NCBI GenBank assembly: GCA_007693955.1
Contig: RECR01000039.1
Coordinates: 1-34,790, forward strand
Length of the DNA stretch: 34,790 nucleotides
Direction of reading: 5' to 3'
Origin: Gloeocapsa sp. DLM2.Bin57
GTDB lineage: Bacteria; Cyanobacteriota; Cyanobacteriia; Cyanobacteriales; Gloeocapsaceae
The position numbers and the translations under genes were made by a program. The notes beneath the pieces are model-generated. The model was not told the DNA's origin, did no database searches, and worked only from the letters and a program-made list of their open reading frames with translations. This document shows, piece after piece, positions 11,566 to 29,174 of the stretch (within the stretch, counting starts at the first letter, position 1; every line of letters starts with the position of its first letter).

Positions 11566-12270
11566 ATGGTTTTTATTCAAAATTCCCCCAAAATCAATAA
11601 AGAATCCGAGCATTTTTGGCGTCAAAAACATCCCCAAAGACATGCTCACTATAGTTTTGAAGATTTTTTTCATTTTGATACTAATAATGGGAGTATCACA
11701 GATTGGAACAAAGAAAGAAACATACTAGTCAGTGAAGATTTTATCATTGGCTTGATTGAAGGATTAGAAGAAGAAGTAGGAGCAGCAGCATCAGTAGTGA
11801 TGTACAATATTGGTAAAGAATGGGGAACAAGAGACGCCCTATTTTTCCAAAATTGGTTTAGTAAAGAATATAACTATAACCTAGACCACATGAATTTACT
11901 CTACGTTTTAGAGGGTTGGTGGTGGCCATTTACAACCCAAGGTTGGGGTAATTGGGAAGTAGATTTAAGCGAACAAAAAAACGGGTTTATGTTCGTAAAT
12001 ATCTTTGATTCAGCAGTAGCGAGAACCCTAGGAGACGTAGGTAAGCCAGTATGTCATATTTATGCAGGTTTATTAGCAGGGTTCTTTAGTAACTTGGTGA
12101 AAAAAGACCTAAATTGTATCGAGATTCAATGTTATGCCATGGGAGAAACCTACTGTAAATTCTTATTAGGAAAACAAGACCGTATCGATGCGGCTACATT
12201 TTGGCAAAACGAAGGCGCAACCACTAAAGATATCGAAAAAAGACTATTAGACGGAGAAATATTGCAATGA
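11566..12270 (+). CDS. V4R-domain protein, PSII assembly (Slr0144-like)
   Basis: First gene of a seven-gene cluster that matches, in order and content, the photosystem II assembly proficiency operon slr0144-slr0152 of Synechocystis 6803. The 234-residue protein carries a V4R (4-vinyl reductase) domain, a small-molecule-binding fold known from bacteriochlorophyll-related proteins and proposed to bind tetrapyrroles. Its C-terminal part shows KPVCHIYAGLLAGFF, then NCIEIQCYAMGETYCKF; three of these Cys are shared with the V4R protein at 13132. The WWWPFTTQGWGNW segment is strikingly aromatic. No signal or membrane segment. Its stop overlaps the next start by four bases (ATGA). The exact ligand is unknown. 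Confidence 0.85.
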   Translation: MVFIQNSPKINKESEHFWRQKHPQRHAHYSFEDFFHFDTNNGSITDWNKERNILVSEDFIIGLIEGLEEEVGAAASVVMYNIGKEWGTRDALFFQNWFSKEYNYNLDHMNLLYVLEGWWWPFTTQGWGNWEVDLSEQKNGFMFVNIFDSAVARTLGDVGKPVCHIYAGLLAGFFSNLVKKDLNCIEIQCYAMGETYCKFLLGKQDRIDAATFWQNEGATTKDIEKRLLDGEILQ

Positions 12271-12626
12271 GTCTAGCAACTTTATTGCAGTGCAAAAGTG
12301 TTGAAGCATTTTTTAATGATTGTAATTGGGAAGGAAGAAAACTAGTTGCCAAACAACCAGAAATAGTTAAACAACCTCTCCCTCTCTGCTTAAAAGTAGG
12401 CGAGTTTTTCCAACAACATAACTGGGAAGGAAAACCAGCAGAGTTGATACCAACCATAACAACAGTAAAAGAAGAAACATTGATTACGCAAACCGTCAAG
12501 GATTTCTTTGCTTACCTGAGTTGGGAAGGAAAACCCCAAGTAGCAAAAATGCCTACACCAACAACACCAAGCCTGGAAACTAAGCATTCACAATTAAATC
12601 TTGATGACCTATCAGACCTATTTTAG
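12267..12626 (+). CDS. Small protein with three VxxFFx4WEG motifs (Slr0145 position)
   Basis: The 119-residue protein, in the slr0145 position of the PAP operon, has no recognised catalytic domain. It contains three copies of V-x2-F-F-x4-W-E-G-(R/K), with Trp at 21, 53 and 86, so the units are 32-33 residues apart. Pro/Thr-rich linkers join them, and the tail is acidic-hydrophobic (LDDLSDLF). This layout suggests a flexible, multivalent binding protein, which is inference. Start ATG 12267 overlaps the upstream stop (ATGA); it ends 11 bases before the next start. Probably cytoplasmic. Confidence 0.8.
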   Translation: MSLATLLQCKSVEAFFNDCNWEGRKLVAKQPEIVKQPLPLCLKVGEFFQQHNWEGKPAELIPTITTVKEETLITQTVKDFFAYLSWEGKPQVAKMPTPTTPSLETKHSQLNLDDLSDLF

Positions 12627-12637
12627 AGGATTTGACT

Positions 12638-13117
12638 ATGTACGCAGAATTAAGAGAACTACTCTACGACGCAGAAGAACATTATTTAAAGTCAGAGGAA
12701 ATAGACAAACTCCGTCAGAATGTTGAATCACTCAAAGAAAGACTAGCAATATATAAAGAATTGCGCAATCGCGAAATAGACATTTTTCAAGCGATCGCCA
12801 ATCAGTTAGAAAAAGAACTCGATCCCACAGAAGTACAACAACTACCAGAATTAATTGTACATTGGGCAAAGATTGTCCGCTACGTAGCCATGGGAATGTT
12901 ACTCAACAGTAATGAATTTATCCAACGCAGAATCTTGGAATGGATTACACCAGTCAGACAAGCGCATAATCGCGTTTCTTTAGATGAACAAGTGTATAAA
13001 TTGCTTTATTCGGAGTTAAAAAACCTTTTACCAGAGCAACAATGGCAAATCTGGCAACCTTTTATAGTGCAAGTAGAGCAAACAATGTTACGCGCAAATG
13101 AAACAGAAGTAGCATGA
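12638..13117 (+). CDS. Phycobilisome-fold (globin-like) protein without chromophore Cys (Slr0146-like)
   Basis: An all-helical protein of 159 residues, a paralogue of the product at 14306: both share AxGMLLN/AGAMLLN followed by a long helix with a conserved Trp (EWITPVRQAH versus IWYRTIVRAY). That family aligns with allophycocyanin subunits. Here the position of the bilin-binding Cys is Leu and the pyrrole-contacting Asp is His (ELIVHWAKIVRY), so covalent bilin binding at this site is unlikely. Start ATG 12638 has AGAGGA 7 bases upstream; a TTG at 12632 is rejected. Role inferred from the PAP operon: photosystem II assembly. Confidence 0.75.
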   Translation: MYAELRELLYDAEEHYLKSEEIDKLRQNVESLKERLAIYKELRNREIDIFQAIANQLEKELDPTEVQQLPELIVHWAKIVRYVAMGMLLNSNEFIQRRILEWITPVRQAHNRVSLDEQVYKLLYSELKNLLPEQQWQIWQPFIVQVEQTMLRANETEVA

Positions 13118-13131
13118 GGTAACCAAAAACC

Positions 13132-13803
13132 ATGATTGACGTTAGCAACCTATTACAAGCTCAAAAACCCCTACCTGGTAACTACTTTGCTTATGATGCT
13201 TATGTATCAGGAGATTATGAAATCGGGTTAATCGAAAACCGAGCAGGAGCAAGACTAATCGCCTTTCCTAAGCTCTTACTAGAAGCAATGTACATAGCTT
13301 TAGAGCAAGAAACAGGTCAAGCATCAGGGGTAGTATTATATAACTGTGGTCGTTGGTGGGGTAAAAACTTCTATCGACGCTTCGCTGAAGAAATTAAACA
13401 ATACTATGGTAAATCTATCGCTGAGATGGAAATGGTAGAGTTTAGCGAGTGTATCAAACAATGTTGGAAAACCTACGGTTGGGGAGTGATGGATATCGAC
13501 TTGAGTTATTACCAACAGGGATATCTAGTTATTACAACTACCCATTCTCCCTTTGCTCAAGCTGCTACCCCTAGTAATAAACCCATGTGTTTTGCTGAAG
13601 CAGGATTATTAAGCGCCTTTTTTACTCAGGTAAGTGGGAAAGAATTAGGTTGTGTACAAACCGCTTGTGAGTCTATGGGAGAAGAATCTAATTACTTTGT
13701 CTTGGGAATACCAGATCGAGTAGAAAAAGCTCAAGCGTGGTTAACCGAAGGACAAGATCATCAGACGATTATGGAACGTCTCTGTGTCAATCAAGCTACC
13801 TAA
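13132..13803 (+). CDS. V4R-domain protein, PSII assembly (Slr0147-like)
   Basis: Second V4R protein of the cluster, 223 residues. It shares with the first V4R protein ASGVVLYNCGRWWG versus ASVVMYNIGKEWG, the GWG segment, and KPMCFAEAGLLSAFF...LGCVQTACESMGEES. Three Cys are common to both; the fourth of the first protein (YCKF) is Asn-Tyr here. The two probably form a complementary pair or heteromer (inference). GAGGT lies about 14 bases before the ATG. Followed 16 bases later by the ferredoxin gene. Confidence 0.85.
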   Translation: MIDVSNLLQAQKPLPGNYFAYDAYVSGDYEIGLIENRAGARLIAFPKLLLEAMYIALEQETGQASGVVLYNCGRWWGKNFYRRFAEEIKQYYGKSIAEMEMVEFSECIKQCWKTYGWGVMDIDLSYYQQGYLVITTTHSPFAQAATPSNKPMCFAEAGLLSAFFTQVSGKELGCVQTACESMGEESNYFVLGIPDRVEKAQAWLTEGQDHQTIMERLCVNQAT

Positions 13804-13819
13804 ATAAATTGAGAAAATC

Positions 13820-14302
13820 ATGGGCAAAATAGTTAAAGTCGAACCCCTTAACGAAGAAGTCATTATCAATACTAACGAAAATCTGCTCTCAGTACTCTTA
13901 AAAAAAGATCTCAATGTCTTACAAGAATGCGGTGCAAGGGGAATGTGTTCCACTTGCCATGTTTATGTAACAGAGGGGGAAGAGAGTCTAACACCCTTGA
14001 ATAAAAGAGAAAAACGCACCCTAGAAGTGATTACTACCTGTCGGACTAATTCTCGTCTAGCTTGTCAAGCGCGAGTAATCGGTGAGGGAGTAGTGGTAGA
14101 AATTCCCGCAGGGATGTATCTGAGTGAGATCGACGATATCGAGTCTTTAATTGGTCGTCGCGCTCAAGAAGATATTTTACACCCTATTTCTGGTGCGGTT
14201 TTAGTAGAAGCAGGAAAATTAATTACTCGTTCCATGATTACTCAACTCAAAGAAACCAAAGGAAAAGTAGAAGAATATCTAGTTAAAAGCGAAGAGGTAT
14301 AA
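13820..14302 (+). CDS. 2Fe-2S ferredoxin with extra C-terminal domain (Slr0148-like)
   Basis: Electron-transfer protein with a [2Fe-2S] beta-grasp domain in residues 1-100. Cluster ligands are Cys37-x5-Cys43-x2-Cys46 and Cys82 (RLACQARV); a further Cys74 is present. The x5 spacing is the adrenodoxin-like pattern, not the CX4CX2C of photosynthetic PetF. Residues of about 105-160 form an additional small domain (HPISGAVLVEAGKLITRSMI) of unknown role. Matches the slr0148 position of the PAP operon. The second ferredoxin of Synechocystis (slr0150) is absent here. Next gene begins 3 bases after its stop. Confidence 0.88.
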   Translation: MGKIVKVEPLNEEVIINTNENLLSVLLKKDLNVLQECGARGMCSTCHVYVTEGEESLTPLNKREKRTLEVITTCRTNSRLACQARVIGEGVVVEIPAGMYLSEIDDIESLIGRRAQEDILHPISGAVLVEAGKLITRSMITQLKETKGKVEEYLVKSEEV

Positions 14303-14305
14303 TCA

Positions 14306-14773
14306 ATGTATAAGTCATTAGCTCGTTTGAGTGTAGAAACAGATGGACGTTACGCTACAGACTCAGAATTACAGTTTATCGAAGATTATTTAGCATCTGT
14401 AGAAAAACGGATTAGCACTTATGAGAAAGTCCGTGATGCTGAACCCAAAATTATCGATAAAGTCGAAAAACAAAAACAGGAAATAAACCCCGAGTTGTTT
14501 AAACTCAACGGGAGAGATATCACAGGAATCTGTCGCCGTGACATGATTGATATCTTACGTTGTTCAGCAGGAGCAATGTTACTCAATGAGATGGATTATC
14601 TACGGGATAATATGTTGATTTGGTATCGTACTATCGTACGGGCTTATCAATACGATCGCCACGACGACACCATCTATAAACTCCTGGAAAACAACACCAA
14701 AGCTCATCTCACCCCAGATGAAGCTAAATTCATGATTCCTGTTTTACAACTTGACCATACTTTACTTAGTTAG
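14306..14773 (+). CDS. Phycobilisome-fold protein retaining chromophore-site Cys (Slr0149-like)
   Basis: A 155-residue protein that aligns with allophycocyanin alpha from the N-terminus: GRYATDSELQFIEDYLASVEKR matches the EARYLSPGELDRIKSF region. ICRRDMIDILR aligns with the bilin attachment segment TCLRDLDYYLR. Cys76 therefore sits at the chromophore thioether position and Asp79 at the tetrapyrrole-binding Asp. A bound bilin is possible but unproven. A GAGGT site precedes the ATG. Paralogue of the gene at 12638. Role inferred from the PAP operon. Confidence 0.8.
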   Translation: MYKSLARLSVETDGRYATDSELQFIEDYLASVEKRISTYEKVRDAEPKIIDKVEKQKQEINPELFKLNGRDITGICRRDMIDILRCSAGAMLLNEMDYLRDNMLIWYRTIVRAYQYDRHDDTIYKLLENNTKAHLTPDEAKFMIPVLQLDHTLLS

Positions 14774-14782
14774 GATAAGATT

Positions 14783-15571
14783 ATGTCAGAACAAAAACAT
14801 TGGCTAGATTTTGCTGAGATTGGTAGTGCTGCAGTTTCCATCGGAGGAGCGATCGCTACTATAGTAGGACAACCTATATTTTATGCTACCGTTCCCCTTT
14901 CTGTTTCGGTAACCCTAAATCTCTTAAATCGTAAACGTCTGTTAAATGAGATGTTAAGCAGTCACCAGCAAGACGTCGCTACTCTCCAACATTCCTTGAC
15001 AACTACTGAAGCAACTCTTAACGGCAATTTAGAGAACCTTAATGCTAACATTGGCTTGCAAATAAAAGACCTTGAGCGTATTTCTGGTGATAACCGTCAA
15101 CAACTCCAAGCAGATTTAACCCTTAAAGAGCAAAATTTACGAGAATCACTGCAAAACTTAGAACATGAACACAATCAAGTCGCTAAAATAGTCGCAGAGT
15201 TACAACAGATTGAAAATCTCTCTCAAGGAATTCGCAATAATCCTGATCACGCAGATTTCTACTATCGTCGTGGTTTAAGTCATCAACATCTCGGAGACAA
15301 ACAAGGAGCGATCGCCGATTATAGCAAAGCTATAGAAATAAATCGAGATCATGCGGGTGCTCATCATCAACGTGGTATCCTCAGCGCTGAATTAGGAGAT
15401 AGAAGACAAGGTGTAGATGATTTACGACGCGCCGCTAAACTCTATTTTGAGCAAGGAGATATCGATAGTTATCAACAAGCTAGAGATTTAAGTAAGGAAT
15501 TTTACGAAATTCATAACCCAGTTACAGAGCAAGCTTTTGAGAAAATTAACCTAGCTAATTTCTTGTCTTAA
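14783..15571 (+). CDS. Membrane-anchored TPR protein (Slr0151-like)
   Basis: 262 residues: a hydrophobic N-terminal region (about 12-48, FAEIGSAAVSIGGAIATIVG onward), a long helical coiled coil (about 55-145), then two TPR repeats (about 155-225; DFYYRRGLSHQHLGDKQGAI and AGAHHQRGILSAELGDRRQG). In Synechocystis the TPR protein Slr0151 ends the PAP operon before a Ser/Thr kinase gene (slr0152, spkG) and functions in photosystem II assembly or repair at the thylakoid. Here no kinase follows: the next gene is convergent. AGGAT precedes the ATG. Last gene of the cluster. Confidence 0.82.
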   Translation: MSEQKHWLDFAEIGSAAVSIGGAIATIVGQPIFYATVPLSVSVTLNLLNRKRLLNEMLSSHQQDVATLQHSLTTTEATLNGNLENLNANIGLQIKDLERISGDNRQQLQADLTLKEQNLRESLQNLEHEHNQVAKIVAELQQIENLSQGIRNNPDHADFYYRRGLSHQHLGDKQGAIADYSKAIEINRDHAGAHHQRGILSAELGDRRQGVDDLRRAAKLYFEQGDIDSYQQARDLSKEFYEIHNPVTEQAFEKINLANFLS

Positions 15572-16377: not shown

Positions 16378-17691
16378 CTAAATTCTCTCTTCTATTTCTC
16401 CTTTAGTAAGTAAACACCATGTTTTCTGATTAATACTTGTAACAATTGCAGGTTTAATTAAGCGAAAATAATTACTATTACTTTTTTGATAGCCATTAAA
16501 TAAAGCAATAATTGCATCACTTTTAGCCTCACTGATTTCTAATTCTTTGGGAAATAAATATAACTCGTCTAGTTGGGGAAATTTAATTAACCAAAAAATA
16601 CCTGCTCCAGTTAAAGGTTGTTCTAAAATAATTTCTTTTTTACTAGTTTTTAAACGTAAATTTTCGCTTTCTTGGGCTTCTCTTACCTCATAAAAAGTTA
16701 ACTCTGGACATTGCCATAATAGGTGAGGATTTTGATTATATATAGCTAAATATTGAGCTAAATAAATATCTTCATTTAACTCTATTTCTTCGTTAATTAA
16801 AGGATTTAAATGATTATTTCTAGTTGCTGACAATTCTGAAATTAATGTTTCTAGCCTAGTTATTTCTTCTTGATAAGCTTCTTTATTTAAATATTTGTCT
16901 TCTATATTTTGGTCAAATTTATCTAGATAATTATTAGCTTCTGTGACAAAATCTTTAATATCTTGAAGAACTTTTTTTAAGGTTAATTCGTGAGTTTCTA
17001 GTTGTTGATTAAGATATCTAATTGAATCAATTGTTTTATTAACTTTTCTTTCTAATCTAATTAATCTACTTTCTTTAGTTTTATTAAAAACATTACTAAT
17101 CACAAAAATCATCAACATAATTGAGATGACTAATAATAAAATCGCCAAGAGATTTAAAAAATCTGACATGGAATCAATTTGCTTTTCTTGATTAATTATA
17201 GTTTCGGTATTTAAGGGTAAACCATCGAGACGATGAACTAAAACATCTAAATGACTAGATAACTTAGAGATTTCTTGGGTTAATAAAAACTTTTGAGTAG
17301 CATTTCTTAGAGGTGCTAGATTAAAGTTATCTAAATCAGCATCATAACCTCTAGCTTGTAAATTTGTTTCTATTAGTTCAATTTTAGTTTGATTGCGAGA
17401 GTTAATCTCCTGGAGAATTTCTAGTATTTTAGTAAAAGTTAGGTTAATTTCTGTATTGATGTCTTGGAATTGATGAGAGAATTCACCTTGGATAGCTTGA
17501 TATTCTTGACTAAGAGCATAAATCTGGTGATAAGCTTCTTGATATGATTGATAGTTATTGAGTAAATCAGTTTCAAAGTTATTGACTTCTTGTTTTATTT
17601 CCTGGATACTTAAACTAGGAATAGTTTCCGCGTTTAATTTGGTTACTCCCAAAATAGAGATTATAATAATTACTAGAGTTGATTTAAACAT
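16378..17691 (-). CDS. Membrane coiled-coil protein, third gene of the ATPase operon
   Basis: Not recognised as a named family. The 437 residues read as: signal-like hydrophobic segment 4-20 ending LNA, a helical exported region 22-178, a transmembrane segment 179-203, a coiled coil about 205-292, and a C-terminal globular domain about 305-437. The coiled coil end and C-terminal domain are paralogous to the protein encoded just upstream: YLNKEAYQEE with YLDKSTYQQT, IYNQNP with IYNQKP, YLFP, ALFNGY, PAIVTSIN with PALVTPIN, and LLTKG with LLKKG. Start ATG overlaps the upstream stop by 8 bases, so translation is coupled. Probably a membrane partner of the large ATPase (inference). Confidence 0.8.
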   Translation of the reverse strand: MFKSTLVIIIISILGVTKLNAETIPSLSIQEIKQEVNNFETDLLNNYQSYQEAYHQIYALSQEYQAIQGEFSHQFQDINTEINLTFTKILEILQEINSRNQTKIELIETNLQARGYDADLDNFNLAPLRNATQKFLLTQEISKLSSHLDVLVHRLDGLPLNTETIINQEKQIDSMSDFLNLLAILLLVISIMLMIFVISNVFNKTKESRLIRLERKVNKTIDSIRYLNQQLETHELTLKKVLQDIKDFVTEANNYLDKFDQNIEDKYLNKEAYQEEITRLETLISELSATRNNHLNPLINEEIELNEDIYLAQYLAIYNQNPHLLWQCPELTFYEVREAQESENLRLKTSKKEIILEQPLTGAGIFWLIKFPQLDELYLFPKELEISEAKSDAIIALFNGYQKSNSNYFRLIKPAIVTSINQKTWCLLTKGEIEERI

Positions 17692-18427
17692 GATTAACTA
17701 GTTGTAAATCACCTTTTTTAAGCAGTTGCCATTGTTTATCGTTAATTGGTGTAACTAAAGCGGGATTAATCACAGTAAAAGTACTTTTATCATCTTCTAA
17801 ATAACCGTTAAACAGGGCTTTAGCTGTAAAAGCTTGAGAAAAGTTAATTTGATGATTGTTGGGGAAAAGATAATAGTTATTACTCTCATCTATTTGGACA
17901 ACCCAAAAATGACCACCATAACAAATATCTAGAATAATAGTAGTAGAATCAATAGCCCTTCTTCTACTAGCTTGTCTCTCATCAAGTTCCACTACTTCAG
18001 CATAATTAATAACACATTCTAACAGTTGTGTTGGTTTTTGGTTATAAATCTGGATACATTCTCTGAGGGAATAATTTTGAGAAGGTTGTTGAGGATAAGA
18101 TGGAGGTTGAGGAGTAGGTATAGTTGGTAATTGTGTAAATTCTCGACGTGGGGAGGTTTGTAACTCTTCTCGAAGTTGTTGAAGTTGACGAGAGAGTTTT
18201 TCTTGTGTTTGTTGATAAGTAGATTTGTCAAGGTAATTTTGGGGTATTCGAGAGAGAAGGTGTTTAATTTCGGCTAGGGTAGCGAGATATTCGTAGTCTT
18301 GGGGAGTCTCAGCGGTTTTTTTCTGAGTTTTTGGCTTATTTTGTTGCAGATAGAGTAAGAGGAAAACTCCTAAACCACCGAGGAGAATTCCGCATAATAT
18401 ACCTAAGAGAAAAGCTGTTAACCACAT
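17684..18427 (-). CDS. Membrane-anchored partner protein, second gene of the ATPase operon
   Basis: Not recognised as a named family. 247 residues: an N-terminal membrane anchor with Gly-rich packing (3-27), a short helical stretch (about 45-90), a Pro/Gln linker (about 95-118), and a C-terminal domain (121-247) shared with the downstream protein. Shared landmarks in order are IYNQKP, EVVELDE, a GHFW segment, YYLFPN, ALFNGY, INPALVTPIN and WQLLKKG. The C-terminal domain should face the cytoplasm given one anchor with basic residues after it. It begins 9 bases after the ATPase gene and overlaps the next gene by 8, so the three are one unit. Confidence 0.8.
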   Translation of the reverse strand: MWLTAFLLGILCGILLGGLGVFLLLYLQQNKPKTQKKTAETPQDYEYLATLAEIKHLLSRIPQNYLDKSTYQQTQEKLSRQLQQLREELQTSPRREFTQLPTIPTPQPPSYPQQPSQNYSLRECIQIYNQKPTQLLECVINYAEVVELDERQASRRRAIDSTTIILDICYGGHFWVVQIDESNNYYLFPNNHQINFSQAFTAKALFNGYLEDDKSTFTVINPALVTPINDKQWQLLKKGDLQLVNHV

Positions 18428-18436
18428 ATTAACCTT

Positions 18437-21400
18437 TTAATCTTCGTCATCAGGAGTTTGATTATCTCCAGTATTAAGTGTTTTGAGTAATTCTTTTAAT
18501 CCTAAGATAAAAGTAGGTTGGGGGCGAATTTTTTGACTTTTACCAGTCATTTGAATTAAAGCGTTATCAACTCTTCTTTTAACTTGACGCCAAATTTGTG
18601 CTTGTTTGCTGTGATAATCGGGGATAGGTTTGATACCTTTGAGGTTTAAATCTACTAAAGCTTGATGATATTTGTCAACAAAGTCTTTCAGGTTGCTAAT
18701 ATCGTCGATAACAAAACTATCTATTGTCGGAGGTAGGATAAGTCGAGAAGAGTCTGATAGTTGTTCTCCATTGATTGTACAAGCTTCTGCGGCAAAAACT
18801 TGATCTGTTTCTGGTTCGCTTAAACCTCTTAAACGGGTAGTTTTGGTATAGACTAGACCACAGGCTACCTCATCTTTGGGCTTTTGACTGAGAATAGTAC
18901 TTTCTTGGCGATCGCTAAATTGAGATCCTCCTTGCAGCATTCTACTAAATAAATGATGGGCTTCACAAAAAGAGTTAAACTCTCCTGATGGTGATAACCA
19001 ATTTAAGATTCTTGATCCATTTCCCCCGATATAAACTGGTGTATTTTCTTGTCTAAGATATTTTCCCTCCTGATACAAACCCGCGATAATTTTACCGATA
19101 TAGTAATATAAACCAGAAATTCCTAGAGTAGTTAATTGGATAACGTAGTCTAAATCCCGACTATTAATCAGATTAGGGCGATGATTTTTTAACCATTCTT
19201 CACCACGGGTGAGTAATACTGCTTCTAGGGTGACATAAAATGGTTCAGGTTGAATCTGACTAGCCACTTCAGTAAGGTTAACGTCAAATTGTTCCTCAAT
19301 AAAAGAAATTTTTTGTCGCATAAATTGGGCGAATAAATCCCTACCCGCTAATTGAATAGAACATTGGTGGATAAGATGATTACTTTGCCAAATAGAAATA
19401 TCTGACGTTCCACCACCCATATCAATGCAAGTAGTATATAATAAGTCGTGGTCTTCATAATCAGCGAAATATTGAGCTAAAGCTAAAGCTTCTGTGCGAA
19501 AATGTTGATTAAGGTTACCCCGCCATTTATGTTCCATTCCCGTAGTAATATTTAATTCTTGAACAATTTTTGTCCAGGTGGTATAGTAAGTATTCTTATC
19601 ATCTAAAGAAAAAGCAGAGGGATAAGAAACAGCCCATTCTATTTTTTTTACTTGTTGACTCGCAGCTTCGGCGGTAATTAGTAAAGCAAGATGTTTGAGA
19701 AAAAGTTTATTATAAGCTAAATTAGGTAGAGACCATTTTAAGTCAGTTTTGAGATAATTTTCTGTAGGGTTAAACTGGTTGAGGTTTTGGGGAATATAAA
19801 CACGTCCATCAAAAATGGTCTTGTCTATTCCCGTAGCCCCAAGAGTGGTTAATACTGTAGAAAGGGGGAACTTTTCTAAAGCCCCTGACATAAAGTATTT
19901 ATATAGTATAGCTAAACGTCCACTAGGAATGGCGGTAACCTGGAGATGTATTGGGGAAAAAGAGAGTTTCTCGGGAGTTTGACTAGGATTATAGTAAACG
20001 TTAGTAAAAGACGTCCCAAAATCTATACCAATTTGCCAAGTTTCGTTAGGATTGAGGTTACCAACCCGAGGGGGTGTTTGTAAGAAGATTAACCCTAGGG
20101 TAGTGGTGGAGTTACTGTCTTGACAGAGTATATAACTAGGAAACTGGTTAAGACGGGTAATTTGAAAGTTTTGTCCTTCGGGAGCGTGAATTTGACTGAT
20201 ATGATTAAAGTTAACTGTGAAAATGGGTTCTTGTTGTTTTTGGGCTTCGGTGCGATCGTCAAAGTAAAAAGCGTAATACTCTTGCCATCCTTCGGCGCGA
20301 AAATTGGGCCAAATTTCTAAAAAGGGGATACTAGTGATAGCTTGTGAGGGTTTAATTTCATAGTCTTTGCTAATACTATACTCTCCTCCTGTGAGTTTAA
20401 GTTTGAGAGTAATTACTATCCCATAGCGATTATCTTGACGATTTTGTGGTCTGATTTCGATAATTTCCTTAAGAGTTTCAGGAGTAAAGTAGTCTAGGAT
20501 TTTGGGATTTAGGGGTAATAGAGGGGTAATGGCAATATCTCTATTTTTATCTCGATAGGTAATAGTAGTAGCCCCTTGTGGTAAGATTGCTCCAGGTAAG
20601 AAACTATCAGAACCTTTCAGGAAGTAAAATTCTGGTAAGAAGATATCATCATAGGTGAGATAATCACCGCCATAGTTATTTTTAAATTCTGTTAGATTAA
20701 AAGCAGCTAGACTGCTATCATATACCCAGATATCCCTTTTATTTTGACGCCAAACTCTACATAAATCTTCCCAGTCTTTAGGGATAAACAATATTTGTCC
20801 TGAATTAGTTTGAGTTAACAATAGACTAGATTCTTCTAAAACAGCAGGTTTAGCCCCAATGGGGTTGTTGAGAGTGGCGATATCACCTAGTAGCAAAGGT
20901 ATTTGAAAGTATTGTTGATTATTACAGTGACGTCGCTGAGGGTTGGTAATATTGCTAGTCAGATTTTGAGTTAATTCTTGTTGAAATTCGAGGATTAGTT
21001 CCCTTAATCTAGCACTATAGACGTTATTAAGGGTTAATTCTGCGTATAAGTGCCCCAACCACAGTTTAAGTTGGATTTTATCATCATTAGTCAATTCATC
21101 ACAGGTTAGGGGAGAAATACTCCCATCTTCTAGATACCAGGGTAGGGGTGATTTGAGTTGTTGGTCTTGATACCAAGGTAATCCTTGCCAATCTCCCTCT
21201 TCACTCGGACAAACTAAGGTAAGGGGGGAAGTCATGCCCACGGGGTTGCTTTCCCAAGTAAAGACATAAATTTCTGTCCAAGGATTACTAGGAGTTTGAT
21301 ACACAGTTTTCTGGCGATCAGGAATCAGCGATCGCAACGCCCCTAAAAAACGATCCTCTGGTGTGTTTAAATCTACTTTAACCGCGGCTAATTTCAACCG

Positions 21401-21694
21401 ATATACTTCCCCTAGGGCGATCGCGCTTAACATACCCCGCCATTGGGCTTTTATTTTCTGGTGTAGGGGATGTTCTGTATTACTTAACACCATTTCTACT
21501 AACAAAGGGCGCGCCCACATATCGGGAATATGACTAACTATCTCGTCTCTAGTTTCTATCCCTATATCTAATTCCAAGCTATCGGCTAATTCTGCGTAAA
21601 AAGCAGGGTTTTCTCGATAATTCCATTCTCCCTTAGCCCCAGGATTAATCGGCGCGTTAGCTTTGAGTCTTGGTTGTAGTGGTGATGGTTGCAT
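18437..21694 (-). CDS. Large actin/Hsp70-type (ASKHA) ATPase with novel N-terminal half
   Basis: About 1,085 residues from the chosen ATG at 21694; the frame stays open to 21829, but that extension is hydrophobic, Cys-containing and unlike the rest. The C-terminal half carries Hsp70/actin ATPase motifs: phosphate-1 IGIDFGTSFTNV (Asp about 558), phosphate-2 IDMGGGTSDISIW (Asp about 758) and adenosine motif YIGGNGSRI (about 885). The N-terminal 540 residues are not recognised and include a conserved-looking Trp/Pro-rich region. No substrate-binding domain of DnaK is seen. Size and order recall the SrfB-type 'virulence factor' ATPases, but I cannot confirm orthology. First gene of an operon with two paralogous membrane proteins. 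Confidence 0.82.
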   Translation of the reverse strand: MQPSPLQPRLKANAPINPGAKGEWNYRENPAFYAELADSLELDIGIETRDEIVSHIPDMWARPLLVEMVLSNTEHPLHQKIKAQWRGMLSAIALGEVYRLKLAAVKVDLNTPEDRFLGALRSLIPDRQKTVYQTPSNPWTEIYVFTWESNPVGMTSPLTLVCPSEEGDWQGLPWYQDQQLKSPLPWYLEDGSISPLTCDELTNDDKIQLKLWLGHLYAELTLNNVYSARLRELILEFQQELTQNLTSNITNPQRRHCNNQQYFQIPLLLGDIATLNNPIGAKPAVLEESSLLLTQTNSGQILFIPKDWEDLCRVWRQNKRDIWVYDSSLAAFNLTEFKNNYGGDYLTYDDIFLPEFYFLKGSDSFLPGAILPQGATTITYRDKNRDIAITPLLPLNPKILDYFTPETLKEIIEIRPQNRQDNRYGIVITLKLKLTGGEYSISKDYEIKPSQAITSIPFLEIWPNFRAEGWQEYYAFYFDDRTEAQKQQEPIFTVNFNHISQIHAPEGQNFQITRLNQFPSYILCQDSNSTTTLGLIFLQTPPRVGNLNPNETWQIGIDFGTSFTNVYYNPSQTPEKLSFSPIHLQVTAIPSGRLAILYKYFMSGALEKFPLSTVLTTLGATGIDKTIFDGRVYIPQNLNQFNPTENYLKTDLKWSLPNLAYNKLFLKHLALLITAEAASQQVKKIEWAVSYPSAFSLDDKNTYYTTWTKIVQELNITTGMEHKWRGNLNQHFRTEALALAQYFADYEDHDLLYTTCIDMGGGTSDISIWQSNHLIHQCSIQLAGRDLFAQFMRQKISFIEEQFDVNLTEVASQIQPEPFYVTLEAVLLTRGEEWLKNHRPNLINSRDLDYVIQLTTLGISGLYYYIGKIIAGLYQEGKYLRQENTPVYIGGNGSRILNWLSPSGEFNSFCEAHHLFSRMLQGGSQFSDRQESTILSQKPKDEVACGLVYTKTTRLRGLSEPETDQVFAAEACTINGEQLSDSSRLILPPTIDSFVIDDISNLKDFVDKYHQALVDLNLKGIKPIPDYHSKQAQIWRQVKRRVDNALIQMTGKSQKIRPQPTFILGLKELLKTLNTGDNQTPDDED

Positions 21695-21840
21695 AATTGA
21701 TGATATATTTTCCCCGTTTTCTTTAACTGTTGTAATCTTGCATCTTGAAGCAACAGTTACTAGTTGAGACACTGAGATTAGTATAATATATTGAAAAGTT
21801 ATCGCGTCACAATAAGAGTAATTAAACAAGCGATCGCTTT

Positions 21841-23132: not shown

Positions 23133-23633
23133 TTAGCGAGGAGAAATGGGTATTTCATTATCAGGAGCAGTTAGTTCACCTGATGTTAACTCTTTTAGTG
23201 CAGCCAAGGGCCAAGCAAAACCTGTGAGCATTTTACCGATAGCTAAAGGTACATCAATGATGATTTCTTTTTCTTCGGAATTTTTATCAGCTCGAACTGT
23301 GATTAAATAAGCACGACCTACCCAACCGATCCAACCTGCGATATACAGGAAGAGAACGCTAGGAATGAGAAAGTCTCCTGCGTGGTTAAAACGACCATCA
23401 ACGATAAGATGGGGTAATCCTTCAGGACCACAAAGAGCTTGAGCGTAGCGTTCGGCGCGTTTACGTCCAGACTCAGGATCAGCGGTCGTGTTACGGAAGG
23501 ATTGAGCGCGCTGTTGATAAGCGGGGGACTCACTACAGGGAACTAATCCTGCTACTGAATCATCAGCAGAAGCTGAGGGAGCAAAATTAAAGCAAAGCAA
23601 TAAAGCTAGAACTAAAGCGAAAAATCGTCTCAT
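23133..23633 (-). CDS. psaF: Photosystem I subunit III, PsaF
   Basis: 166 residues. Signal peptide 1-23 (ending ASA), directing the N-terminal domain to the thylakoid lumen. The lumenal domain has two Cys (VPCSES and ALCGPEG), and the membrane part includes [22 protein letters not shown]. The tail reads [17 protein letters not shown], as in other cyanobacterial PsaF. In plants the N-terminal domain docks plastocyanin or cytochrome c6. AAGGAAAC precedes the ATG. Divergent from tsaD across 184 bases; operon with psaJ. Confidence 0.97.
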
Positions 23634-24864: not shown

Positions 24865-24892
24865 ACTAAAAAAATAGTTAATGTTATCTAAT

Positions 24893-25489
24893 ATGACAGA
24901 TATAGAAAAACTAGCCCGTTTAATGGCAGCAGATTTTAGTAATCAGCAACAAGCTTACGACAATCCTCCCTTTTTTGCTCATATTAGAGTCTGTATGCGT
25001 CCTTTACCCACTGAAACTTGGGGAGAAACTAGCTTATTTTTAGAACAAGCTTATGATTTTCTCCTCAACTCCCCCTATCGTTTGCGAGTACTTAAATTCA
25101 AACAAGTAGATAACGGGATCGAATTAGAAAATTACAAAGTTAAAGCAGAAGAGCAGTTTTTTGGAGCATCTCGTAACCTAGAATTATTAAAAACCCTTAC
25201 ACCAGAACACCTAGAAAAACTGCCTGGTTGCGATATGGATGTAGAGTGGACAGGTAGTGGTTTCCAAGGTAAAATTAAACCAGGAAAAGCCTGTATAGTA
25301 GAACGTAAAGGGAAAAAAACCTATCTAGATAACAGCTTTGAAATTGACGAACACAAACTGATTAGCTTCGATCGCGGTTTTGATCCTGACACAGATGAAA
25401 TGGTCTGGGGTTCGATCGCCGGACCATTCCATTTCACTAGAATTACTAGTTTTGCTGATGAAGTTCAAGTTAATTCCCTGCAGGGATAA
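24893..25489 (+). CDS. cpcT: CpcT/CpeT-family phycobilin lyase
   Basis: CpcT attaches phycocyanobilin to Cys-153 of phycocyanin beta (and phycoerythrocyanin beta); CpeT relatives act on phycoerythrin. The protein starts TDIEKLARLMAADFSNQQQA and contains PPFFAHIRVCMRPLP, FLEQAYDFLLNSPYRLRVLK, and GCDMDVEWTGSGFQGKIKPGKAC, matching the CpcT family throughout. The start is taken at ATG 24893 by comparison with family N-termini; ATG 24881 would add four residues. No good ribosome binding site is seen. No phycobiliprotein genes are in the window, so CpcT versus CpeT cannot be settled from context. I lean to CpcT. Confidence 0.88.
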   Translation: MTDIEKLARLMAADFSNQQQAYDNPPFFAHIRVCMRPLPTETWGETSLFLEQAYDFLLNSPYRLRVLKFKQVDNGIELENYKVKAEEQFFGASRNLELLKTLTPEHLEKLPGCDMDVEWTGSGFQGKIKPGKACIVERKGKKTYLDNSFEIDEHKLISFDRGFDPDTDEMVWGSIAGPFHFTRITSFADEVQVNSLQG

Positions 25490-27179: not shown

Positions 27180-29174
27180 TTAAGTCGATCTCCTGAGACT
27201 ATATTGAAAACAAAGTAATCTAAACCATAAAGCAGGGAAACGCTTTTCTAACCAGACACGAGATTGTTTTAACCAAGGAGTAAAGCTACCGCCTAGTAGC
27301 CAATTTTTGCCTGCGTCTAGGGTAAATAACAGATAAGATAATAACCAACGCCATAAATCCCGAAAACCCGCCATCTCAACAATCCACCACAATAAGATCG
27401 GGTTCTGTTGTGCAGCTTTTAAGGCTAAACGAGTAAATGTCCACCAATCGGTTCTATCTTTAATAAAGGTATCAGCGACTTGAGGGGGTTCATCAGCGAG
27501 TAAACCAAAGAAAGTATTTAACATCGCGTTAATTCTTGCAGGTGGTAAGCTTTTACCCGTAGGAACCATCATACCTTTAGAGAATAGCCAGGTTACCGCA
27601 ACGTTACTCTGATAAGCTCTAATTAAGTCTAAATCCTTAGCACTGAGAAAGTCATGATTTAAGGCGGTATCTAGTAAAACCGTTAAACGACCCAAATTAC
27701 GTACCAATGAACCAAAACCAGTAAAAATTAACGGCGATTGTAGAGAAGCAGAATCACCAATCAATACCAGTCTATCAAAAGCAACCCGACGCTCTTGACT
27801 ACTGACGCTAAAATGTCCAGGTATATAACCAAAAGTCGGCTTTTTCCAGACCAACTTATCTAAATCACAACGTTTATACTCTGGTAAAATATTAAAGAAA
27901 TCCTCGTACATCTCTAATAAAGAACCAGGATTATCTTTATGTACTTGGTGGTAATGGAATAAATAAATAGTTAAATCCTTACCTTCACCAGGGAATAACT
28001 CCCAAATCAATTGACGTCCTCGGGAAATATCCCCATGGGAATTAAGTACATCACCATAATTACTATCCCAGACTTGGGGTTCAAAACCACTCTCAATTAC
28101 TGCACCTACCGTAGGACAAACACTATCAAAAGTGCGATCGCCGTTTAATTGCCAAGCGATCGGCGAAGCACTTCCCATCGCATCAACTAAAACTCTTCCT
28201 GTGGCTTTTTTAGTTTCTTTTGTGCCTAAATTTACTAATTCTACCAAAACCTGTTCTGAACTAGTATAAGCTTTAACAAACTCGGTTTCATCCCAAATTG
28301 TCCCTCCTGCAGCTATTAACTTTTCTCCACAAAGTTTCAGTAATTTTTCTGCATCTAGGGCTAAATTTAAAACCGTTGGTGTATGTAAAACTTTCGCTTT
28401 TAAATGGGGGGGATTATTAGCATCAAAAAACTTATTAAAACCATCTTTATATTCTCTAGCGATGAGACTTTCTACCTCTTCACTAGTCAATAAATTCAAG
28501 TCAATTAAACATTTAATTTCATCTCGGGAGATATTCCATTCTCGATTCATTTTACCAAAGGGCAACCTTTCTACCAACAGTACTCGATAACCCTTGCGCG
28601 CCATGACTGCAGCATGAATCGAACCTAGCGCACCTCCTAGGTAAATTAAATCATATTCAGGATTAGAATTAGTCTCAGCAGCATTAGCAAAAATTACCTG
28701 TTTTGGTTGAGTAGGGTTTTCTACTTGTTCTCTCCAGCGTTTCTCCCACCAATATACCCGATTCAGATAAAATTCTCCCCTAGGCATTTTTTGGAAATAT
28801 TTAACCGTTTCGGGATAATAAGGTGCTAAAGCGTCAAAAATTGACTTTTGGGCTAAATCAATTACAGGTAATTGGGGACTTTGATAGGGGAATTTTGCTC
28901 TAATTTCTTGTGTTAATTGTTTAATAACTGAACCTTCATTAGGTAATTTTTGTTGAGCATACCTAAACACCTTAAGATAGGTAGTCCGTTGCAATGACCA
29001 AACAAAGATAGATAGAACAGAGTTACTCTCTACACTAGCTGCGGATAATTCTACCAGAACTCCTGCACTGGTAGCTTTTTTTAAACCCTTAAGGGGTTGC
29101 CAAGTTTTTTGTAACCAGTTAATTACTTTTTCAGGATCTGGTGTGGGAATTTCTATATATAGTAGTTGTTTCAT
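27180..29174 (-). CDS. FAD-dependent lycopene cyclase-family protein (CruA/CruP type)
   Basis: 664 residues. The first 170 are a family-specific N-terminal region; a Rossmann FAD-binding motif follows at 175-204 (DLIYLGGALGSIHAAVMARKGYRVLLVER) in which the usual GxGxxG reads GGALGS. Later flavoprotein blocks are GRVLVDAMGSASPIAWQL and RLVLIGDSASLQSPLIFTGFGSLVRNL, which match the GDxA and GFG signatures of this cyclase family. The C-terminus has hydrophobic or amphipathic segments near 600-650. CruA makes beta- or gamma-carotene from lycopene; CruP is a paralogue connected to oxidative stress. The length favours CruA, but I cannot separate them by eye. Confidence 0.75.
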   Translation of the reverse strand: MKQLLYIEIPTPDPEKVINWLQKTWQPLKGLKKATSAGVLVELSAASVESNSVLSIFVWSLQRTTYLKVFRYAQQKLPNEGSVIKQLTQEIRAKFPYQSPQLPVIDLAQKSIFDALAPYYPETVKYFQKMPRGEFYLNRVYWWEKRWREQVENPTQPKQVIFANAAETNSNPEYDLIYLGGALGSIHAAVMARKGYRVLLVERLPFGKMNREWNISRDEIKCLIDLNLLTSEEVESLIAREYKDGFNKFFDANNPPHLKAKVLHTPTVLNLALDAEKLLKLCGEKLIAAGGTIWDETEFVKAYTSSEQVLVELVNLGTKETKKATGRVLVDAMGSASPIAWQLNGDRTFDSVCPTVGAVIESGFEPQVWDSNYGDVLNSHGDISRGRQLIWELFPGEGKDLTIYLFHYHQVHKDNPGSLLEMYEDFFNILPEYKRCDLDKLVWKKPTFGYIPGHFSVSSQERRVAFDRLVLIGDSASLQSPLIFTGFGSLVRNLGRLTVLLDTALNHDFLSAKDLDLIRAYQSNVAVTWLFSKGMMVPTGKSLPPARINAMLNTFFGLLADEPPQVADTFIKDRTDWWTFTRLALKAAQQNPILLWWIVEMAGFRDLWRWLLSYLLFTLDAGKNWLLGGSFTPWLKQSRVWLEKRFPALWFRLLCFQYSLRRST

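Follow-up and report, generated by a model that had tools for sequence, protein, structure and literature searches.

The window analysed here, a 34,790-nucleotide stretch of Gloeocapsa sp. DLM2.Bin57 DNA, contains a gene cluster ordered like the Synechocystis slr0144-slr0151 (pap) operon, with a small open reading frame (ORF) in the slr0145 slot (Table 1). By Pfam content, the cluster combines two V4R proteins, a 2Fe-2S protein and a phycobiliprotein-like globin, as in clusters of the pre-PcyA type. Elsewhere in the window we noted PsaF (PSI subunit III) at 23133-23633 and a CpeT/CpcT-family gene at 24881-25489. Four frames (16378-17691, 17684-18427, 18437-21829 and 27180-29174), encoding proteins of 247-1130 residues, had no Pfam match at 1e-5, and the first three of these are neighbours on the minus strand.

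Table 1. Positions of the slr0144-slr0151-type genes in the window and of the features of the motif protein.
Feature	Position	Strand	Basis
V4R-A (Slr0144 position)	11566..12270	+	Pfam V4R 1e-22; A3 profile
ATGA overlap, V4R-A stop / motif-protein start	12267..12270	+	
Motif protein, 119 aa (Slr0145 position)	12267..12626	+	ORF list, ATG start
Motif 1, N-type, VEAFFNDCNWEG, residues 12-23	12300..12335	+	
Motif 2, N-type, VGEFFQQHNWEG, residues 44-55	12396..12431	+	
Motif 3, last (C-type), VKDFFAYLSWEG, residues 77-88	12495..12530	+	
C-terminal tail LNLDDLSDLF, residues 110-119, conserved	12594..12623	+	
GLB1, phycobilisome-like globin (Slr0146 position)	12632..13117	+	Pfam PF00502 3.6e-6
V4R-B (Slr0147 position), predicted last-motif partner	13132..13803	+	Pfam V4R 6.7e-15; AF2
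2Fe-2S protein (Slr0148 position)	13820..14302	+	Pfam Fer2 1.4e-9
GLB2, phycobilisome-like globin (Slr0149 position)	14306..14773	+	Pfam PF00502 3.1e-14
TPR protein (Slr0151 position)	14783..15571	+	Pfam TPR families

The ORF in the slr0145 slot encodes a protein in which V..FF....WEG begins at residues 12, 44 and 77. As the first-pass annotation had described, the copies are evenly spaced (Trp21, Trp53 and Trp86, spacings of 32 and 33), and these are the only Trp residues of the protein. Among 200,000 shuffled versions of the protein, none contained a V..FF....WEG. Across the 138 contigs of the assembly (3.45 Mb), the DNA pattern encoding FFx4WxG has 14 matches, four of which end in TGGGARGG (WEG). 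Three of the four lie within this ORF and the fourth, at C94:10043, has an in-frame TAA, so that the ORF is the only one in the assembly to code for a stop-free FFx4WEG. The residue before Trp is Asn in motifs 1 and 2 and Ser in motif 3. The linkers, which had been called Pro/Thr-rich, are so only in part, the first being rich in Lys, Gln and Pro, and the claim that the protein holds no other domain had overlooked the conserved C-terminal tail. A conserved EDFFxF...DWN near the N-terminus of V4R-A resembles the motif, and mimicry is possible judging from the consensus.

The motif protein had no Pfam or NCBIfam match over the cut-off and no PDB relative. Its sole Pfam match up to E 1 was FANCL_d1 (E 0.078, below the cut-off), and its best PDB matches were eukaryotic, with E 0.024 for profile A1 and 0.35 for the single sequence. 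An identity as a phycobilisome linker, or as a relative of any Pfam, NCBIfam or PDB entry, was rejected because nothing scored above the cut-off.

The name pap given to the slr0144-slr0151 operon stands for PSII assembly proteins (PMC4853703; PMC9145668), and passages of PMC4853703 cite a link to photosystem II assembly dating from 2008. The role in PSII is disputed: earlier work summarised there ties the operon or Slr0151 to PSI, and the photosystem effects may stem from slr0150-slr0152, according to PMC10151467. Co-fractionation and affinity purification with GFP-Slr0149 followed by mass spectrometry indicated interactions among Slr0144-Slr0149, in text that, as far as available, does not name Slr0145 itself (PMC9880817). 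In the available portions of the literature we found no description of a function or motif for Slr0145, whose name appears in a list of predicted photosynthesis genes. We found no paper about the motif protein by title or abstract, and no description of a mechanism for the slr0144-slr0149 products.

Distribution, motif classes and C-terminal tail

With the window protein as single query, 61 of the 116 genomes sampled from the class gave a match (E <= 0.1). A 24-residue motif-module profile (A2) matched in 81 of the 116 at the same threshold; it was built from 54 fragments, many of them from the same sampled genomes, which hence match by construction. Seven genomes with weak best matches (E 0.0185-0.0857; G011, G050, G057, G078, G090, G100 and G110) were set aside, leaving 74 with best E of 6.6e-4 or lower. 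The V4R-A profile matched in 76 of the 116 genomes, and here the weak matches in G037 (2e-34) and G056 (2.7e-11) were set aside, leaving 74 at 2.6e-75 or lower. With these nine weak hits removed, by cut-offs picked after the lists were seen, the motif protein and V4R-A occur in identical sets of 74 genomes among the 116 sampled, an agreement that is inflated by kinship among the genomes.

A pattern search across cyanobacterial proteomes had been proposed for the motif. Run here as the module profile over the 116 genomes, it placed every one of the 150 matches listed on the strand of a V4R-A match and 12-452 bases downstream of it. We therefore rejected the idea of a widespread cyanobacterial motif, as all of the 150 matches listed fall in an slr0145-type slot. 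In every full cluster read, this slot lies between V4R-A and the phycobilisome-like globin. We named 45 loci, 43 of them cyanobacterial as judged from title or context and two (L118 and L119) not; the order V4R-A, GLB1, V4R-B, Fe-S, GLB2, TPR is kept in 30, several others being cut by contig ends or rearranged. The motif ORF adjoins V4R-A in 42 of the 45, and in 33 of the 41 loci with both ends placed the two genes overlap by four bases. The three loci with no motif gene (L093, L107 and L108) also show no V4R-B or GLB1 in the stretches of DNA covered, which indicates that the motif protein goes with the V4R-A/GLB1/V4R-B set. G037 (L174) keeps V4R-B (9.5e-106) without V4R-A or a motif protein, the sole such case read. 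In Synechocystis, Slr0145 shares its slot and gene order with the window protein, and the Synechocystis salina locus (L116) likewise encodes three motifs and a tail in the slr0145 slot, with 32% tblastn identity to the window sequence over most of the ORF. None of the loci read fuses the motif to another domain; a 535-aa frame region in G050 (L045), considered as a natural fusion, was discarded as it has no strict motif in any frame.

A listed A2 module is lacking from 17 of the 94 listed V4R-A loci (E <= 2.6e-75). Seven of the 17 are second V4R-A copies within one family, and the two of these that were read (L176 and L177) hold V4R-A and two GLB2-type globins, with no V4R-B or GLB1. L107 and L108 share this arrangement, V4R-A then two GLB2-type globins, and at all four loci the motif protein, V4R-B and Fe-S protein were not found; they are a reduced form of the cluster. 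Six more are second clusters of another family (L168-L173), whose slot ORF bears degenerate motifs, for example LTVEKLFATVKWQS or LTTKELIEQIEWNA, with a tail-like end in four of the six. One further locus (G111:C152, L175) does contain a module, at 30.8 bits, and the remaining three (G091:C58, G108:C31 and G079:C1:540757) lie outside the reading. Motifs are also borne by the slot ORFs of two further divergent clusters (L179 and L180). The divergent slot ORFs of L168 and L171-L173 have basic Trp/Leu-rich N-termini, for which the sequence makes membrane binding conceivable.

We next considered how many motifs each protein carries. Among 104 distinct cyanobacterial proteins, with motifs counted by regular expression and duplicates (identical last 60 residues) removed, 63 have two motifs, 31 have three, two have four (both from genome G383), seven have five and one has a single motif. 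The set leaves out L118, L119, a truncated entry (L052), one protein missed by the pattern (L062), L120, further or partial ORFs including L155, L157, L167, L175 and L184, and the divergent slot ORFs. Orthologues with only one irregular motif, which would have spoken against the proposed scaffold, are thus not what we see: two to five regular motifs are present, with one protein in 104 scored as having one. Motif spacing ranges from 26 to 118 (median 35) and is 26-47 in 152 of 159 cases.

The motifs fall into two classes. Asn precedes Trp in 142 of 159 non-last motifs vs 22 of 103 last motifs; Trp at -5 occurs in 107 of 159 vs none of 103, and Leu or Phe at -6 in 15 of 159 vs 64 of 103. As a rule, the sequences suggest that the extra motifs are N-type and that a single C-type motif comes last; exceptions include L096, with no Asn in any motif, and L121, with Asn in the last one. 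These counts bear on a reading in which the protein is a stoichiometric clamp, one chain per V4R-A/V4R-B pair, with extra N-type motifs being redundant or serving only to raise affinity. The prevalence of two-motif proteins, the presence of two V4R genes in full clusters and the four-base overlap with V4R-A would all suit such a clamp, but three to five motifs occur in 40 of the 104 orthologues, the additional ones being mostly N-type, and we regard this reading as unlikely.

An L..[FLM]-type tail ends 89 of the 104 orthologues. Within a subset of 93 orthologues, this pattern was found in 79, with 8.9% of shuffles matching as well, and a tighter one was found in 89, with 2.6% of shuffles matching. 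A relaxed pattern covers 103 of the 104 orthologues but also 22% of shuffles, and it was not relied on.

Predicted docking of the last motif on V4R-B

In the L079 locus, the motif protein, GLB1 and V4R-B share one frame, and DNA read through the stops gives one chain; in L121, the motif protein and V4R-B share a frame while GLB1 is out of frame and becomes nonsense in the chain. Both chains were folded with AF2, and we read pLDDT and DSSP strings from the best of five models, bearing in mind that pLDDT is no binding measurement and that single chains keep the products covalently close. The L079 chain (alignment A7, 91 rows; a near-twin, A6, was checked column by column) had a mean pLDDT of 77.2 and pTM of 0.72, and the L121 chain (62 rows) 66.1 and 0.53. 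In blocks of ten residues, the L079 motif protein scored 45, 54, 42, 35, 43, 36, 37, 58, 93, 72, 58 and 38. The helix of its last motif (within residues 85-97) lies in the 93 block and the Trp end in the 72 block, while motif 1 (8-20) scored 45-54 and motif 2 (43-56) 36-43; row cover of motif 2 equals that of the last motif, with motif 1 shallower than both. GLB1 scored 87-98 apart from its first part (43-75), and V4R-B 89-98 except over the N-terminal fifty residues (52-78) and at the end (67).

The L121 motif protein scored 62, 69, 58, 46, 67, 60, 45, 79, 90 and 46 in the same kind of blocks, with the helix of the last motif (81-94) in the 90 block, its Trp in the 46 block and the N-type motifs at 58-69. 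The contrast between the last and the other motifs is smaller in L121 (90 vs 58-69) than in L079 (93 vs 36-54). Outside this one motif, both folded orthologues have low confidence and no globular domain, and the possibility that the region folds as one such domain finds no support in them. These models of two orthologues suggest that the window protein is probably mostly disordered. Prediction of complexes with the other products of the operon had also been proposed; done here for V4R-B and GLB1 by way of single chains, it favoured the last motif (90-93) and left the other motifs at 36-69.

An isolated bridge residue precedes the last-motif helix in both models (85 in L079, 81 in L121). Since GLB1 has no strand residue in the L079 model, the bridge partner is probably in V4R-B, where the candidates include one in the weak N-terminal part (blocks 52-78). 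Other isolated bridge residues in the motif protein are 16 and 22 in L079, and 47, before motif 2, and 116, in the tail, in L121. Because of the weak Trp end of the last motif in L121 and the weak N-terminal part of V4R-B in L079, we trimmed our confidence in a tether slightly.

Given that the last-motif helix reaches pLDDT 90 in L121 with GLB1 as nonsense, the prediction for this motif does not depend on GLB1. This weighs against a role as a globin linker, in which the motifs would bind GLB1 or GLB2 in the way that linkers hold phycobiliproteins in the phycobilisome, with V4R-B contact being secondary. GLB1 does adjoin the motif gene in the full clusters read, and its model is similar to proteins of the phycobilisome core (Z 15.3, rmsd 3.4, 149 aligned); however, Pfam matches include no linker family, and taken together we judge a globin linker to be quite improbable.

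We found that the L121 model of V4R-B resembles the sensor domains of MopR/PoxR (Z 15.3, rmsd 3.8, 178 aligned), Bet3 (Z 12.5, rmsd 3.4, 151 aligned) and BcsD in the BcsH-BcsD filament (7zzq; Z 11.0, rmsd 2.9, 134 aligned). Z for BcsD ranged from 9.4 to 11.0 and was about 7 for H-NOX, and Foldseek returned the same groups for the L079 model. As modelled, V4R-B, the predicted partner of the motif, has the BcsD/V4R/Bet3 fold. In an uncultured cyanobacterium (L095:6562-9042), V4R-B has an acidic C-terminal extension of about 600 residues with many near-identical repeats (ALNMLTDLPDLDTLES...), in which protein Pfam detects V4R alone, and in G060 an 825-residue open frame surrounds V4R-B.

A proposed tether for same-operon products, and occurrence of the motif protein beyond Cyanobacteriia

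The first-pass annotation had proposed a multivalent linear-motif scaffold that tethers several copies of one partner from the same operon. Our data support the multivalent tether in outline, with binding predicted for the last motif alone. The wording "several copies of one partner" does not stand, as there are two motif classes and only the last motif is placed at high confidence beside V4R-B; this makes at least two kinds of binding site likely, and the phrase can apply to the N-type motifs at most. On balance we favour a disordered tether for the V4R/globin/Fe-S proteins, an account that we consider somewhat better than even. The last motif would form a short helix docked on V4R-B, a different subunit would be bound by the N-type motifs (one to four of them), and the tail may be a third, separate docking motif. 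A single chain would thereby join V4R-B to one or more further subunits in a multivalent assembly. The most likely partner of the N-type motifs would be V4R-A, which we infer because it is the V4R-B paralogue, its gene overlaps the motif gene and the two proteins co-occur.

We also weighed whether the FFx4W segments could be amphipathic anchors that bring a soluble complex to the membrane. The motifs are aromatic and hydrophobic, some divergent slot ORFs have the basic N-termini described above, and Slr0144-Slr0149 were placed on thylakoids, according to parts of PMC9880817. Two classes with polar signature residues (Asn, Gly) would nevertheless be unexpected of plain anchors, and docking on V4R-B is predicted in both L079 and L121; we hold this explanation to be very unlikely.

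We asked whether the arrangement is restricted to the class. Within the phylum of the window, V4R-A matches were found in 55 of 386 genomes, one of them (G122) outside the class. At locus L181 of this sister-class genome, Fe-S and V4R-A are followed by an ORF of 249 residues that carries three FFx4W motifs, then by GLB1 and V4R-B. In Sumerlaeota, two loci (L118 and L119, of one phylum) have Fe-S, V4R-A, an ORF of about 110 residues, globin, V4R-B and a kinase. The slot ORF of L118 bears LGMFFRQFPWDG and VGQYFARFDWEA, that of L119 bears the weaker ARLYLRRVPWSG and VGQYFAQFNFSG, and the tail is absent from both. V4R-A is present in three of 40 genomes of this phylum, and in the third (L188) the start of an ORF with one motif lies at the contig end. 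The kinase, directly after V4R-B, is a Ser/Thr protein kinase at L118:7149-7979 (Pkinase 1e-32) and, by eye from the sequence, at L119:7109-7912. Searches for Photo_RC and PsaA/PsaB gave no match in G122 (completeness 91%) or in G460, G461 and G482 (no completeness figure), and two of each in the genome of the window. The slot with its motifs thus occurs in Sumerlaeota and in the sister class, in genomes with no detected reaction-centre genes, which suggests that the basic job of the cluster is tied to tetrapyrrole or bilin handling and not to photosystems. The role of the tether may lie in tetrapyrrole or bilin handling that cyanobacteria use in photosystem assembly or repair.

Section 7 of PMC10151467 describes non-cyanobacterial clusters made up of an Fe-S protein, two V4R proteins, a globin or two and, in the typical case, heme oxygenase; it derives the cyanobacterial clusters from these and states that PcyA of cyanobacteria has lost its linkage to the cluster. 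Our L118, L119 and L181 loci are alike to these pre-PcyA clusters in their order of Fe-S, V4R-A, motif ORF, globin and V4R-B, and the text of section 7 of that paper makes no mention of the small ORF.

The arrangement resembles known systems in part. EPYC1 and CsoS2 are disordered and carry, in several copies, a short motif that binds their partner, Rubisco; the motif protein is like them in its multi-copy motif and probable disorder, whereas partner, motif and context differ. The proline-rich proteins of the BcsH/BcsP type are disordered. BcsH and BcsP organise BcsD (PDB 7zzq) into cytoskeletal scaffolds, according to excerpts of PMC11470070, and by analogy the motif protein may here organise a protein of related fold. 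That system belongs to a cellulose operon and forms a filament, whereas the present one is in a different operon. Pfam matches of the window ORFs scanned (from 10576 on) include no cellulose genes; with the cellulose context absent, we draw an analogy of working principle only and claim no BcsH/BcsP membership.

A broader view, possible but doubtful, is that the motif protein was an ancestral, pre-photosynthesis organiser of a V4R/globin/Fe-S supercomplex. The C-type motif would cap V4R-B and the N-type motifs would string V4R subunits in an assembly of tunable size, which cyanobacteria later attached to photosystem assembly via the added tail. Such an organiser would thread tetrapyrrole-binding V4R proteins, which are fold-related to BcsD and TRAPP, like "beads on a string". 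The favoured tether, which co-occurs with V4R-A in all genomes counted, offers a physical hypothesis for how the products of this operon assemble and names residues to mutate. If this is correct, proteins of the V4R/BcsD/TRAPP fold would have another motif-bearing organiser in addition to BcsH/BcsP.
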